Shown here: positions 16,764 to 20,828 of the stretch, piece by piece
Layout of the letters: each line of letters begins with the position of its first letter
Position numbering within the stretch: the stretch's first letter is position 1
DNA from: a virus
Strand: one strand, 5' to 3'
DNA length: 44,408 bases
Virus record (IMG/VR): IMGVR_UViG_3300006112_000022
Span: 1 to 44,408 of that record
Position numbers and translations under genes: made by a program
The notes under the pieces: model-generated
The model's database searches: none
Seen by the model: only the letters and a program-made list of their open reading frames with translations
What the model was told of the DNA's origin: nothing

Positions 16764-16774
16764 CTTACCCAAAC

Positions 16775-16797
16775 TAATTGACAGGTATTGTCAATTA
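16775..16797. promoter_or_regulatory. Perfect 9-bp inverted repeat over the tmRNA promoter
   Basis: TAATTGACA and TGTCAATTA flank a five-base loop. The left arm contains the TTGACA -35 box at 16778-16783, so the palindrome may be an operator. Confidence 0.45.
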
Positions 16798-16806
16798 TGA
16801 TTAAAT
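16778..16806 (+). promoter_or_regulatory. Probable promoter of the permuted tmRNA gene
   Basis: TTGACA at 16778-16783 is followed 17 bases later by TTAAAT (16801-16806). A TAAATA late-like core overlaps the -10 region. Transcription from here would cover the acceptor piece, the inner ORF and the coding piece. Confidence 0.4.
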
Positions 16807-16810
16807 ATAA

Positions 16811-16877
16811 GTTATTGCTGTATGAAGCAAAGAGAAAAGTGTTCTGGACGCGGGTTCGACTCCCGCCAGGTCCACCA
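16811..16877 (+). ncRNA. ssrA: tmRNA acceptor piece (upstream half of permuted ssrA)
   Basis: The T arm GCGGG-TTCGACT-CCCGC (16850-16866) is followed by acceptor strand CAGGTCC (16867-16873), discriminator A and encoded CCA (16875-16877). The stretch GGACGCGGGTTCGACTCCC is the highly conserved 3' end of bacterial tmRNA. The acceptor strand pairs over all seven positions (one G-U) with GGGCCTG at 17089-17095, which lies downstream rather than upstream, so the gene is circularly permuted. The 5' boundary of the mature piece is approximate. Two-piece tmRNAs are known from alphaproteobacteria, some cyanobacteria and some betaproteobacteria. Confidence 0.85.
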
Positions 16878-16889
16878 TAAAGAAGTTTG

Positions 16890-17087
16890 ATGAAAAAAGT
16901 AAAATACGATTATGTTACTATTAACAAAGGTGTTCAAAATTTCGAACACAAGTTGTTGATTGGTGTTTGGGAAGATGATGTTTATCGTCCACTAAACAGA
17001 AACGAATTAGAGTGGTTTGCTACTCAATATACTTTTGATCCAAACATTACTGGTGCTAAGTTAGTTAAACGACCAGTTTCTTTATGA
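16890..17087 (+). CDS. Small protein encoded inside the tmRNA intervening segment, 65 aa
   Basis: ATG 16890 lies 12 bases after the CCA of the tmRNA acceptor piece, and the TGA ends one base before the first G of the coding piece (17089). The product begins MKKVKYDYVTINKGVQNFEH and has a balanced, soluble composition with several Trp, Tyr and Phe. Ribosome site is modest (AAAGAAG). No family was recognised. The exact fit between the two tmRNA halves means it would be translated from, or released with, the spacer that is cut out of the tmRNA precursor. Whether it acts in trans-translation is unknown. Confidence 0.65.
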   Translation: MKKVKYDYVTINKGVQNFEHKLLIGVWEDDVYRPLNRNELEWFATQYTFDPNITGAKLVKRPVSL

Positions 17088-17088
17088 T

Positions 17089-17250
17089 GGGCCTGTCATG
17101 GTTTCGACAGGGCAAAGAGTAACAGAGTGGACAGCACATCAGCAACGATGTAAAAAGAAGAAAACAAAGTAAATGCAGCCAATGATGCTGTTTGGGCTCT
17201 TGCAGCCTAAATGAGGTTTGAGTAGCGCCTTATAACCAAACGCTACTTAA
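17089..17250 (+). ncRNA. ssrA: tmRNA coding piece with tag reading frame (downstream half of permuted ssrA)
   Basis: The piece opens with acceptor strand GGGCCTG and the conserved tRNA-like start ATGGTTTCGACAGGG. The tag frame is GCA GCC AAT GAT GCT GTT TGG GCT CTT GCA GCC TAA (17175-17210), giving (A)ANDAVWALAA, which has the ALAA end recognised by ClpXP-type proteases. After the tag, GTTTG (17216-17220), AGTAGC (17221-17226), CAAAC (17237-17241) and GCTACT (17242-17247) pair in the crossed order of an H-type pseudoknot. The 3' boundary is approximate. Together with 16811-16877 it forms a two-piece tmRNA for ribosome rescue. Confidence 0.88.
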
Positions 17251-17251
17251 G

Positions 17252-17276
17252 AAGGCTACTTCGGTAGCCTTTTTTC
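17252..17276 (+). terminator. Rho-independent terminator of the tmRNA gene
   Basis: AAGGCTAC-TTCG-GTAGCCTT is a perfect 8-bp stem with a UUCG tetraloop followed by a T run. Confidence 0.9.
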
Positions 17277-17306
17277 TTGCGATAAATATATTGTCATATA
17301 TATAAT
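17277..17306 (+). promoter_or_regulatory. Promoter next to the start codon at 17312
   Basis: TTGCGA (17277-17282), 18-base spacer, TATAAT (17301-17306). Only five bases separate the -10 box from the ATG, so a leaderless transcript is expected. A late box GATAAATA lies at 17281-17288 in the spacer. Confidence 0.5.
17281..17288 (+). promoter_or_regulatory. Late promoter box (GATAAATA)
   Basis: TAAATA core directly after the tmRNA terminator and 23 bases before the ATG at 17312. Confidence 0.45.
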
Positions 17307-17805: not shown

Positions 17806-18819
17806 ATGAAGAAGGTAATTTCAGCCGTATTCGCATTAACAATCGCAATGTCAGCAATGGCAGATGTTAGTGTTTTCGGCACAATGGACGCTGGATATTC
17901 TAGCACAAAAGCACCAAACGCTGCAACAACAACTACAGGTTATACTAGTGGTGGAATGACAACAAGTTTTATTGGCTTCAAGGGCAGTGAAGACTTGGGT
18001 AATGGTTCTAAAGCAGTTTTTGAATTAAGCAGCTTCTTGAATGACAGCAACGGTGCTGTACAAGGTGGTTCAACAGTTAACACATTTGCCCGTTCAGCAT
18101 ACGCTGGCTTGCAAGGTAGTTTTGGTGAACTAACATTGGGTCGTCAAACAAACCCAACATTCTTGCCAGTGATCTTGTTTAACGCTTATGGTGACAGTGG
18201 CGCTTATAGCCCATTATGGCATGCTACTTACTTTGGTAACACAGGTAATGCACAAACTCAGTTGTACAATGATACAGCATGGGACAACAGCGTAAAATAC
18301 ACAACACCAAGCATCGGTGGTGCAACAGTTAGCTTGCAAAATTCTAAAGGTACAAGTGCTCAAAACTTCGGTGGCAATGTATTGTACTTCAAGGGTGATT
18401 TGGGCTTGACAGCATTCTATCAAAAGACAGGTTACAATAGTTCTGGTAGTTTCCAAACTGACATCTACACAGCTAACCCAGGCACACAATCAACAGAGCG
18501 TGGTCTAGGCGCAAGCTATGACTTGAAAGTTGCTAAATTGTTTGCTACCTACACAGAAGGTAAAGACAAAGCATTAAACATGGATGGTAAGACAACACAA
18601 GTGTCTGCAAATGTTCCAATGGGTCCAGGTAGCGTATTGGCAGAAGCTGCACATACTCGTTATGACGGTGGTGCAATTACTACATACGATGAGTATGCAG
18701 TTGGCTATGACTATAACCTAAGCAAGAAAACTGATGTTTATGCAACAGTTGGTCGCACTTATGTAACAGCACAAACTGCTGGTCAAACATTGGGCGCAGG
18801 TCTACGCATTCGTTTCTAA
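17806..18819 (+). CDS. Outer-membrane porin, betaproteobacterial general-porin type
   Basis: The 337-residue protein has a signal peptide (MKKVISAVFALTIAMSAMA) and then DVSVFGTMDAGYSS, the usual first strand of 16-stranded Gram-negative porins. The segments SFIGFKGSEDLGNG, LGRQTNPT and the final strand AGQTLGAGLRIRF with a C-terminal Phe are family hallmarks; the Phe is the signal for outer-membrane insertion by BAM. Full length, with no frameshift. Ribosome site AAAGGAAAATT precedes the ATG, and a strong terminator follows, so it is a self-contained transcription end. Porins are rare in phages; known cases in lambdoid phages replace host porins and change phage sensitivity. A similar receptor-replacement role is inferred here. 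Confidence 0.88.
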   Translation: MKKVISAVFALTIAMSAMADVSVFGTMDAGYSSTKAPNAATTTTGYTSGGMTTSFIGFKGSEDLGNGSKAVFELSSFLNDSNGAVQGGSTVNTFARSAYAGLQGSFGELTLGRQTNPTFLPVILFNAYGDSGAYSPLWHATYFGNTGNAQTQLYNDTAWDNSVKYTTPSIGGATVSLQNSKGTSAQNFGGNVLYFKGDLGLTAFYQKTGYNSSGSFQTDIYTANPGTQSTERGLGASYDLKVAKLFATYTEGKDKALNMDGKTTQVSANVPMGPGSVLAEAAHTRYDGGAITTYDEYAVGYDYNLSKKTDVYATVGRTYVTAQTAGQTLGAGLRIRF

Positions 18820-18844
18820 TCATTGATTAGACCATAACTTAATA

Positions 18845-18870
18845 AAAAGGGCACTTAGGTGCCCTTTTTT
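18845..18870 (+). terminator. Rho-independent terminator after the porin gene
   Basis: AAAAGGGCAC-TTAG-GTGCCCTTTT followed by more T. Confidence 0.9.
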
Positions 18871-18908
18871 GTTGCTTTCTTCGATATATGCATATATAAT
18901 ACAAAACA

Positions 18909-18966
18909 TAGAGCACTAAGTAAAAGTATAGAGTGCTCTACGATAGTGCTCTACAATAGTGCTCTA
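18909..18966 (+). repeat. Operator-like repeat array upstream of the HNH gene
   Basis: One inverted copy TAGAGCACTA (18909-18918) and three direct copies of (T)AGTGCTCTA starting near 18931, 18944 and 18957, i.e. a 13-bp period. They end 14 bases before the ATG at 18981. Inverted plus direct copies allow a hairpin or cooperative protein binding. Confidence 0.6.
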
Positions 18967-18980
18967 TAAGAAAGAGGAAA

Positions 18981-19352
18981 ATGTCAAATTCAAGTTGTTT
19001 TACTTGTTTAAATTGTGGTAGGAATAATCCTAGCAAAGGATCTTCTTACACCAACAAGTACTGTAATAATAGTTGCCAGCAAGAACATCAGCGCAGAAAC
19101 AAAGCGTTTGAGAAAGTTCAAGAATGGAAAGAAGCTAAAACGCCACAAGCGTGGGCTAAGATTCCTGACTATATTAAACAGTATTTGATTGGTCAAAGAG
19201 GACATCGTTGCCAAGTTTGTGACAACACAGACCACAACGGTCAAACTATCCCGTTAGATGTAATTTACAAAGACGGTGACAGTTACAACAACAAGGAAGA
19301 TAATCTACAGTTGATATGCCCCAATTGTAGGGCACAACGTAAAATTCATTAA
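18981..19352 (+). CDS. HNH-family endonuclease with zinc-binding cysteines
   Basis: The 123-residue protein has an N-terminal Cys cluster (CFTCLNCGRN, YCNNSC) and a C-terminal domain with CQVCDN, IPLDVIYKDGDSYNNKEDN and LICPNCRAQ. The paired CxxC motifs around an N-rich core are the HNH/zinc-finger arrangement seen in phage homing endonucleases; the usual first His of HNH appears replaced in the IPLDVI segment, so activity is uncertain. Ribosome site AGAGGAAA. It stands alone between the porin terminator and ahpC, a typical place for a mobile endonuclease gene. Confidence 0.65.
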   Translation: MSNSSCFTCLNCGRNNPSKGSSYTNKYCNNSCQQEHQRRNKAFEKVQEWKEAKTPQAWAKIPDYIKQYLIGQRGHRCQVCDNTDHNGQTIPLDVIYKDGDSYNNKEDNLQLICPNCRAQRKIH

Positions 19353-19370
19353 TACACAAAGGAAATTAAA

Positions 19371-19916
19371 ATGAAAACAATCGGCGATAAAATCACAAGT
19401 TTTGCAGTCACAGGCGTTAAGCCAGGAGCATTGACACCAGACAATGCATTTGAAACAATCACAGACCAAAGTTTTGAAGGTAAATGGAAAATCATCGTTT
19501 ACTATCCAAAAGACTTTACATTCGTATGCCCAACTGAAATCGTTGCATACGACAAACTACGTCAAGACTTTGAAGACCGTGATGCGGTGTTGATGATCGG
19601 TTCAACAGATAATGAATTCTGTAAACTAGCATGGCGTAATGCACATGAAGATTTGAAGAAAACAACTTCATGGAGTTTTGCCGATGTTGCTCGTGATGAA
19701 AATTCATTGGCAGAACAATTGGGTATCTTCTATGGTCCAGCAGGTGCAGCACTTCGTGCAACATTTATTGTTGATCCAGACAATATTATTCAACATGTTA
19801 CAGTAAACAACTTGGACGTTGGTCGTAACCCAGATGAAACATTGCGTATTCTTGACGCATTGCAAACTGGCGAGTTATGCCCATGCTCACGTCCAATCGG
19901 TGGAGACACACTATAA
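19371..19916 (+). CDS. ahpC: Peroxiredoxin AhpC, mycobacterial/AhpD-dependent type
   Basis: The 181-residue protein has DFTFVCPTE with peroxidatic C53 and the C-terminal GELCPCSRP with C170 and C172. Three cysteines in this pattern mark the AhpC group that is reduced through AhpD rather than AhpF. It reduces hydrogen peroxide, organic peroxides and peroxynitrite in the cytoplasm. The stop overlaps ahpD by one base (TAATG), so the pair is co-translated. Ribosome site AAAGGAAATTAAA. Full family length. Confidence 0.9.
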   Translation: MKTIGDKITSFAVTGVKPGALTPDNAFETITDQSFEGKWKIIVYYPKDFTFVCPTEIVAYDKLRQDFEDRDAVLMIGSTDNEFCKLAWRNAHEDLKKTTSWSFADVARDENSLAEQLGIFYGPAGAALRATFIVDPDNIIQHVTVNNLDVGRNPDETLRILDALQTGELCPCSRPIGGDTL

Positions 19917-20434
19917 TGACTGCTTGGGTAGACGCACTAAAAGAGCAAAGTATTCCTGACTATGCCAAGGATACTAAGCTAAACATTGACGCTGTAATTA
20001 AGCGTAGTACTCTACCTGTTGAAGAAGCAGAAGCGGTTGCACTAGCGGCTGCTTTTGCTACTGGCAACAGTAAATTGTGGACTTGGATGGAAAGTCAAAT
20101 TGAAAACAAGACTGAAACACAAGCTGCATTAACAGCAGGTGCATTGATGGCACAAAACAACATTTGGTATCCATTTGTTGAAATGGCTGACGATGAAAAC
20201 TTAAAAGGTTTACCTGCACAATTGCGTATGAATGCTATTAGTACAAGCGGTGGAACAACCAAAGAAAGATTTGAAGCATATTCATTAGCTGCAAGTATCG
20301 TTGGTAAATGTCACTTTTGTGTAAAAGCACACTACGAAGGGTTGAAAAAGATGGGCTATACCGTAGAACAACTACGAGATATTGGTCGCATTGCAAGTGT
20401 TATTAATAGTGTAAGTAAAGTTGTAGCGAGTTAA
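19916..20434 (+). CDS. ahpD: Alkyl hydroperoxide reductase AhpD
   Basis: Start taken at ATG 19916, which overlaps the ahpC stop; the frame is open 39 bases further up inside ahpC. The 172-residue product has VGKCHFCVKAHYEGL with C132, C135 and H139, the CxxC...H redox site of AhpD/carboxymuconolactone-decarboxylase-like proteins. Family knowledge: AhpD passes electrons from dihydrolipoyl enzymes to oxidised AhpC. It needs host lipoylated E2 protein and lipoamide dehydrogenase, neither of which is seen in this window. Confidence 0.9.
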   Translation: MTAWVDALKEQSIPDYAKDTKLNIDAVIKRSTLPVEEAEAVALAAAFATGNSKLWTWMESQIENKTETQAALTAGALMAQNNIWYPFVEMADDENLKGLPAQLRMNAISTSGGTTKERFEAYSLAASIVGKCHFCVKAHYEGLKKMGYTVEQLRDIGRIASVINSVSKVVAS

Positions 20435-20435
20435 A

Positions 20436-20828
20436 ATGTCAAACTTAGCAGAGTATTTTGAAAAGAATCGTTATAAACCAAGCTATCTGTTTGGTGAACG
20501 AGTGTTTGGTTATTGGAATAAGATTCCTTTCATTGGCTCTGTGGGCAATGAAGGTGTGGTTAGTGATCTAGAAGGACCTAGAATCACTATCACATTAGAT
20601 TTGCCCATTAAGTTTGAAAATGATATACACAATGTTATAATTGTAAAACACAAAGACATTAAATCTTTGTTGAGAGATTATAATGCGTCGGGAGTTCCAA
20701 AGGCCGGAGCGACTGATTCTAAACCAGTAGGCAGTGGGTTCGAATCCCATCCGACGCACCAAGACACTAAAAAATCTAAGAGCAGTAGTCTCTTAGAAAA
20801 CTTGAAAAAACTTAAAGGTAAAAAATAA
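20436..20828 (+). CDS. Hypothetical phage protein whose frame runs through a tRNA gene
   Basis: The 130-residue protein has a compact beta-rich N-terminal part (residues 1-82: ERVFGYWNKIPFIGSVGNEG ... LDLPIKFENDIHNVIIVKHKDIK) that reads as a complete small domain. Residues 84-109 are encoded by the 77-base tRNA sequence at 20685-20761. The last 20 residues are Lys/Ser-rich. The tRNA was most likely inserted into, or captured as, the 3' end of this gene while the frame stayed open. Processing by RNase P would cut the mRNA, so protein and tRNA production may compete. Function of the N-terminal domain is unknown. Confidence 0.55.
   Translation: MSNLAEYFEKNRYKPSYLFGERVFGYWNKIPFIGSVGNEGVVSDLEGPRITITLDLPIKFENDIHNVIIVKHKDIKSLLRDYNASGVPKAGATDSKPVGSGFESHPTHQDTKKSKSSSLLENLKKLKGKK
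20685..20761 (+). tRNA. tRNA with anticodon CUA (candidate amber suppressor)
   Basis: Acceptor GCGTCGG (20685-20691) pairs with CCGACGC (20751-20757), followed by A and encoded CCA. D stem GTTC/GAGC, anticodon stem ACTGA/CCAGT (last pair A-C), loop TTCTAAA, five-base variable region, T stem GTGGG/CCCAT with loop TTCGAAT. Counting gives T32, T33, anticodon CTA at 20719-20721, then A37 A38. Position 8 is G instead of the usual T and pair 31-39 is mismatched. If the loop were shifted one base the anticodon would be TCT (Arg), but then the stem does not form. The charging amino acid cannot be told from sequence. Confidence 0.75.

Follow-up and report, generated by a model that had tools for sequence, protein, structure and literature searches.

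The intervening segment (IVS) of a permuted phage tmRNA gene carries a protein gene of its own in the virus record analyzed here (44,408 bases, referred to below as the window), and the same position in related phage loci is occupied by other, unrelated small proteins. We consider it probable (roughly 0.8) that the IVS of phage permuted tmRNAs houses nested protein genes and acts as an exchangeable slot for them. One transcript would then serve a protein gene as well as the gene of a stable RNA, with the protein gene lying in the piece that is expected to be discarded.

In the window, the nested open reading frame (ORF) fills the IVS almost exactly: its ATG lies 12 nt past the encoded CCA, it runs for 65 codons, and its stop is 1 nt short of where the mature 5' piece begins. 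In frame 1 only, codons are used as in the other genes of the phage (z 4.75 relative to stop-free shuffles), and four phage genes of similar size, used as controls, gave z values of 3.6-4.9. The same ORF occupies this position in a second viral contig (L002), where it is 98% identical, with three synonymous changes and one nonsynonymous change; these four sites are too few for a selection test on that pair alone. The 65-aa protein has no family, fold or PDB match, and its AlphaFold model is weak (pLDDT 69). Neither this protein nor two other IVS families have a match in isolated phages. Most relatives have TAAGGA as their ribosome-binding site; that of the window ORF, TAAAGAAG, is weaker.

Pattern scans of IMG/VR, together with a few isolate loci, yielded 152 permuted tmRNA loci, 138 of them distinct. 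The loci were gathered by length-specific patterns, and all counts given below are therefore conditional on IVS length and do not represent prevalence; in a first, less length-selected scan, ORF-bearing IVSs were a minority. ORFs are present in 55 loci and fall into 38 families without detectable mutual similarity.

The permuted tmRNA gene of the window

A permuted tmRNA in phage DNA had been claimed at 16778-17276 in a preliminary description, which proposed ARAGORN and covariance models as the check. Both confirm it: ARAGORN predicts the gene at 16785-17301 on the + strand, with the 3' half upstream of the 5' half, and Rfam model RF04321 (tmRNA_permuted) matches over its full length with a score of 112 bits (cut-off 47, E 3.4e-21). 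The Rfam beta_tmRNA model stays below its cut-off (48 versus 84 bits). The acceptor strands CAGGTCC and GGGCCTG, described earlier as pairing over seven positions in spite of their reversed order, do so, and the pairing includes a G3-U70 wobble, the mark of alanine tmRNAs and tRNAs, which is joined by A73 and the encoded CCA as alanine acceptor identity. The tag frame likewise ends in ALAA as claimed (AANDAVWALAA-stop, GCA ... GCC TAA), an ending of the degradation-signal type, and the D-region reads GGTTTCGAC. The claimed terminator was also recovered, and the claimed pseudoknot is retained as a candidate, as its AGTAGCG helix folds at -10.7 kcal/mol and the crossing helix was read by eye (Table 1).

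The window gene is confirmed by these matches as a permuted phage tmRNA, for which two-piece maturation, alanine charging, SmpB binding and trans-translation are predicted. No SmpB gene was recognized in the 44-kb window, so the phage would have to rely on SmpB from its host. The T loop is uninterrupted according to ARAGORN, and no group I intron model matches in Rfam. The inverted repeat directly upstream of the tmRNA is possibly an operator, the end of an upstream transcript or a promoter element. That the phage captured ssrA from a host and supplies its own ribosome rescue, as had been suggested from the sequence, is plausible on both counts. T4-type core genes were not recognized among the sampled window proteins, whose PHROG matches are to a primase, a carbamoyltransferase, a tail fibre and an Rz-like spanin. 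The preliminary description did not include the IVS as an open reading frame.

Table 1. Features of the permuted tmRNA locus in the window
Feature	Positions	Strand	Sequence or detail	Basis
Inverted repeat	16768..16800	+	9-bp, perfect, TAATTGACA-GGTAT-TGTCAATTA; directly upstream of tmRNA	RNAfold, -8.1 kcal/mol
Permuted tmRNA gene	16785..17301	+		ARAGORN
Covariance model match	16816..17210		full model length	RF04321
tmRNA 3' half (acceptor-side piece)	16809..16877	+	ends predicted	ARAGORN, RF04321
T arm	16850..16866	+	part of tmRNA 3' half	
Acceptor strand of 3' half	16867..16873	+	CAGGTCC	
A73	16874	+	tmRNA 3' half	
Encoded CCA	16875..16877	+	tmRNA 3' half	
Intervening segment (IVS)	16878..17088	+	211 nt	bounds from ARAGORN/Rfam
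IVS end stem, 5' strand	16878..16887	+	TAAAGAAGTT; overlaps ribosome-binding region of nested ORF	
Nested protein gene	16890..17087	+	65 aa, MKKVKYDYVTINKGVQNFEHKLLIGVWEDDVYRPLNRNELEWFATQYTFDPNITGAKLVKRPVSL; stop TGA 17085-17087	codon usage; L002 homologue
IVS end stem, 3' strand	17075..17084	+	AGTTTCTTTA; last codons of nested ORF	
tmRNA 5' half	17089..17210	+	GGGCCTG 17089-17095, D-region to 17108, mRNA-like part with tag frame	ARAGORN, RF04321
Tag frame	17175..17210		AANDAVWALAA-stop	
H-type pseudoknot candidate	17215..17248	+	GGTT/AACC crossing AGTAGCG/CGCTACT	sequence
Terminator hairpin	17251..17272	+	GAAGGCTAC-TTCG-GTAGCCTTT, then T-rich tail	-12.2 kcal/mol

The IVS end stem and a possible link between translation and maturation

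The two ends of the IVS pair with each other. In a fixed register, the 10-bp end stem is paired in 96.8% of cells across 34 unique ORF-bearing IVSs, compared with 76.6% when partners are permuted (0/5000), and it covaries, with several pair types at each position. It often overlaps signals of the ORF. The Shine-Dalgarno core AAGGA is found in the first 12 nt of the IVS in 23 of the 38 ORF families versus 8 of 61 other IVSs (p 1e-6), and in 16 of the 34 unique IVSs above it falls within the end stem. The 3' strand of the stem is the ORF end or the bases right behind its stop, and a conserved TGAT before the mature 5' end is the source of many ORF stop codons.

From this arrangement we infer how processing, translation and tmRNA activity may follow one another. 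The precursor RNA would contain first the 3' tRNA-like half, then the ribosome-binding site with the 65-codon ORF, and last the tag-bearing 5' half. Pairing of the IVS ends would extend the acceptor stem and bury the ribosome-binding site against the last ORF codons. The binding site would be transcribed ahead of its pairing partner, so that ribosomes could load and translate the ORF; once the ORF end has been transcribed and is ribosome-free, the stem and the acceptor helix would close and further initiation would stop. The closed helix would in turn let tRNA-processing enzymes excise the IVS, yielding the two-piece tmRNA. Each transcript would thus be translated a few times into a small phage protein before it yields the tmRNA.

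We put forward such a coupling of translation and subsequent maturation tentatively, at somewhat less than even odds. The broader proposal, that the IVS is a mobile and widely used cargo slot that switches between ORF translation and tmRNA maturation, with ribosome traffic setting the amount of rescue RNA, is more doubtful. If true, a processing by-product would have been turned into a messenger, with ribosome loading and rescue-RNA production competing on one molecule. The nested genes are also a possible reason why phages keep the permuted form of tmRNA.

Alternatively, the nested ORFs may be real and maturation may proceed independently of their translation, the IVS being simply a site where a compact genome tolerates small genes, and its stem serving only the folding and cutting of the precursor; we give this a little under an even chance. 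ORF-less IVSs share the end stem (90.7% paired versus 58.7% with permuted partners), so the stem probably predates the ORFs and its role may be confined to processing, and the unrelatedness of the 38 ORF families suggests no shared function. However, with AAGGA placed inside the stem as often as it is, and with the stop so often in the TGAT by the predicted cut site, a regulatory effect seems hard to avoid.

A further possibility concerns the tmRNA itself, which could be a decoy or inhibitor of host trans-translation instead of a working rescue RNA. Phage DS6A has a tmRNA that consists of the tRNA-like domain only, and this RNA or a similar one is reported to inhibit host tmRNA (PMC11915505, PMC4131195). 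We regard this as improbable for the present tmRNAs, as full tag frames, mostly ending in ALAA or LAA, are kept in the window and its relatives and the covariance model is matched over its full length.

Coding and exchange of IVSs among phage loci

We defined a spanning frame as one that starts within the first 16 nt of the IVS and runs to its end. Of the 67 unique IVSs that measure 110 nt or longer, 54 contain such a frame; dinucleotide shuffles predict 2.2, and the antisense strand has 1. The case is weak for IVSs of 75-110 nt (13 of 23 versus 5.5 expected). All 21 IVSs of at least 200 nt are coding, 18 of them by one spanning frame. The other three are L144 (IVS of 273 nt) and L147 (256 nt), which have two tandem small ORFs each, every ORF with its own Shine-Dalgarno sequence, and L139, the ORF of which starts at +39 behind a triplicated TAAGGAAATA. 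Within the first 40 nt of the L139 IVS, the ribosome-binding/stem sequence TAAGGAAATATCCA occurs three times in tandem ahead of the ORF. In the 11 ORF families with usable pairs, pooled pN/pS is 0.37 (p 1.5e-15) and third-position changes are in excess (p 6e-8), which indicates that the IVS ORFs as a class are under purifying selection. The singletons L051, L070 and L166 may be spurious.

It is therefore very improbable that these are ordinary permuted phage tmRNAs in which the spacer ORF is a chance occurrence or a functionless, decaying remnant. Many phage IVSs lack an ORF, and spacers of 75-110 nt are fairly often open by chance, but neither the longer IVSs, the codon usage of the window ORF and the pooled pN/pS nor the complete thioredoxin described below fit this explanation; for the class, a chance origin is ruled out by the shuffles, the antisense control, codon usage and pN/pS. 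ARAGORN detected no tRNA within the ORF-less long IVSs. Of the six isolate-phage loci, five have a permuted tmRNA; the IVSs of these five do not exceed 126 nt and contain no convincing ORF. One pattern (IVS of about 190-220 nt), run against the genomes of 84,980 bacterial and archaeal species, gave two matches, neither being an ORF-filled permuted tmRNA.

In one locus (L010), the IVS frame continues beyond the start of the mature 5' piece and extends into the tRNA-like domain, with MMGLPWFRQG as its last residues, resulting in an overlap of ORF and mature tmRNA. Three other loci (L174, L196 and L200) have IVSs of nearly the same length as L010 and contain AAGGA, with no closed ORF.

The encoded proteins range from 24 to 84 aa and include one-span membrane peptides. 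One IVS family is a complete thioredoxin with a WCGPC motif (PF00085, E 4e-21), which shares 46% identity with a free-standing protein that adjoins the ribonucleotide reductase genes of Limnohabitans phage DC31. Another family matches PGDYG just over its cut-off, two families have weak, sub-threshold matches to DUF6171 and DUF6552, and some IVS ORFs match PHROG entries. Six loci (L056, L109, L084, L023, L044 and L080) have IVSs of 88-97 nt that encode single-span hydrophobic peptides of 24-27 residues behind a Shine-Dalgarno-like site. The small phage proteins of the IVSs could easily be missed by annotation because their genes are located inside an RNA gene.

IVSs are exchanged among loci. 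In L123 and L128 the IVS is 98% identical, compared with 71-74% in the flanking tRNA-like pieces of the tmRNA, and the acceptor stems differ; in L136 and L137 the corresponding values are 94% and about 67%. Identity between the window and L002 extends from the 3' half (69/69 positions) through the IVS to the start of the 5' half and ends in the mRNA-like part. These comparisons indicate that an IVS can pass from one tmRNA to another that is otherwise different. Recombination within conserved sequence, in the T arm and the D region, would explain this movement, and swapping through such conserved tRNA-like flanks would place different proteins in the slot of different phages. With conserved RNA flanks as recombination arms, phages would have a concrete route for trade in small genes. 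That the ORFs are instead mobile or homing elements spreading themselves through tmRNA genes, like intron homing endonucleases, is the least probable explanation even though IVSs pass between different tmRNA genes, as the ORFs are small and mutually unrelated, include a thioredoxin and one-span membrane peptides, and have no nuclease match in Pfam or PHROG scans, and recombination in the flanks suffices.

Comparison with known tmRNAs and neighboring genes

A permuted tmRNA in a phage is by itself not new, since 53 two-piece tmRNAs were reported in 2022 among 18,146 phage genomes, nearly all aquatic, including one in Methylophilales phage Melnitz (PMC9004378). Together with the 152 loci collected here, this number does not agree with the earlier view that such a gene is unusual in a phage. 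The phage tmRNAs of that study resemble the present one in the permuted ssrA, the aquatic phages and the RNA family. They differ in that Melnitz has a glutamine riboswitch with its ssrA, whereas the Rfam scan of the window found none, and in that no IVS protein gene is described in PMC9004378. The window gene shares the conserved tRNA-like domain and the paired spacer ends with RF04321 and the bacterial models RF01849/01850/01851; however, the consensus spacer of the Rfam permuted model is about 24 nt, and that of the window is 211 nt and coding.

A second gene in the intervening segment has a parallel in a survey of 97,179 tmRNAs, which describes permuted tmRNAs with a tRNA-Ala in one intervening sequence and a repeat element in another (PMC11915505). 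These are an RNA gene and a repeat, each in a single sequence, whereas the window has a protein gene, and the searched parts of the survey make no mention of IVS protein genes in permuted tmRNAs. The survey also reports that group I introns of tmRNA genes can carry genes for homing endonucleases (36/883). There too a protein gene lies within a removed part of a tmRNA gene, but it is a nuclease ORF in a self-splicing T-loop intron, while the window has no intron and the IVSs encode unrelated small proteins. In our literature search, with subscription papers mostly outside its reach, no publication described a protein gene located in the intervening segment of tmRNA, and protein genes in phage tmRNA IVSs, including the thioredoxin, appear not to have been described before.

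Further downstream, the window contains a tRNA gene with anticodon CTA, which would read TAG (20685-20761, labeled Pyl by ARAGORN), within an ORF at 20436-20828. Readthrough of TAG by this tRNA is unsupported: of the three listed genes that end in TAG, two would gain only 4 to 6 residues, and the third 74 residues that run antisense into the next gene. Between this tRNA and the tmRNA (17806-20434) are genes for a porin of the gram-negative type (PF13609, E 1e-43), together with those for an AhpC/TSA peroxiredoxin and a CMD/AhpD-like protein. A single match, of 28%, was obtained for the porin among 50,697 phage records, and, without real phage relatives, the porin looks like host-derived cargo.
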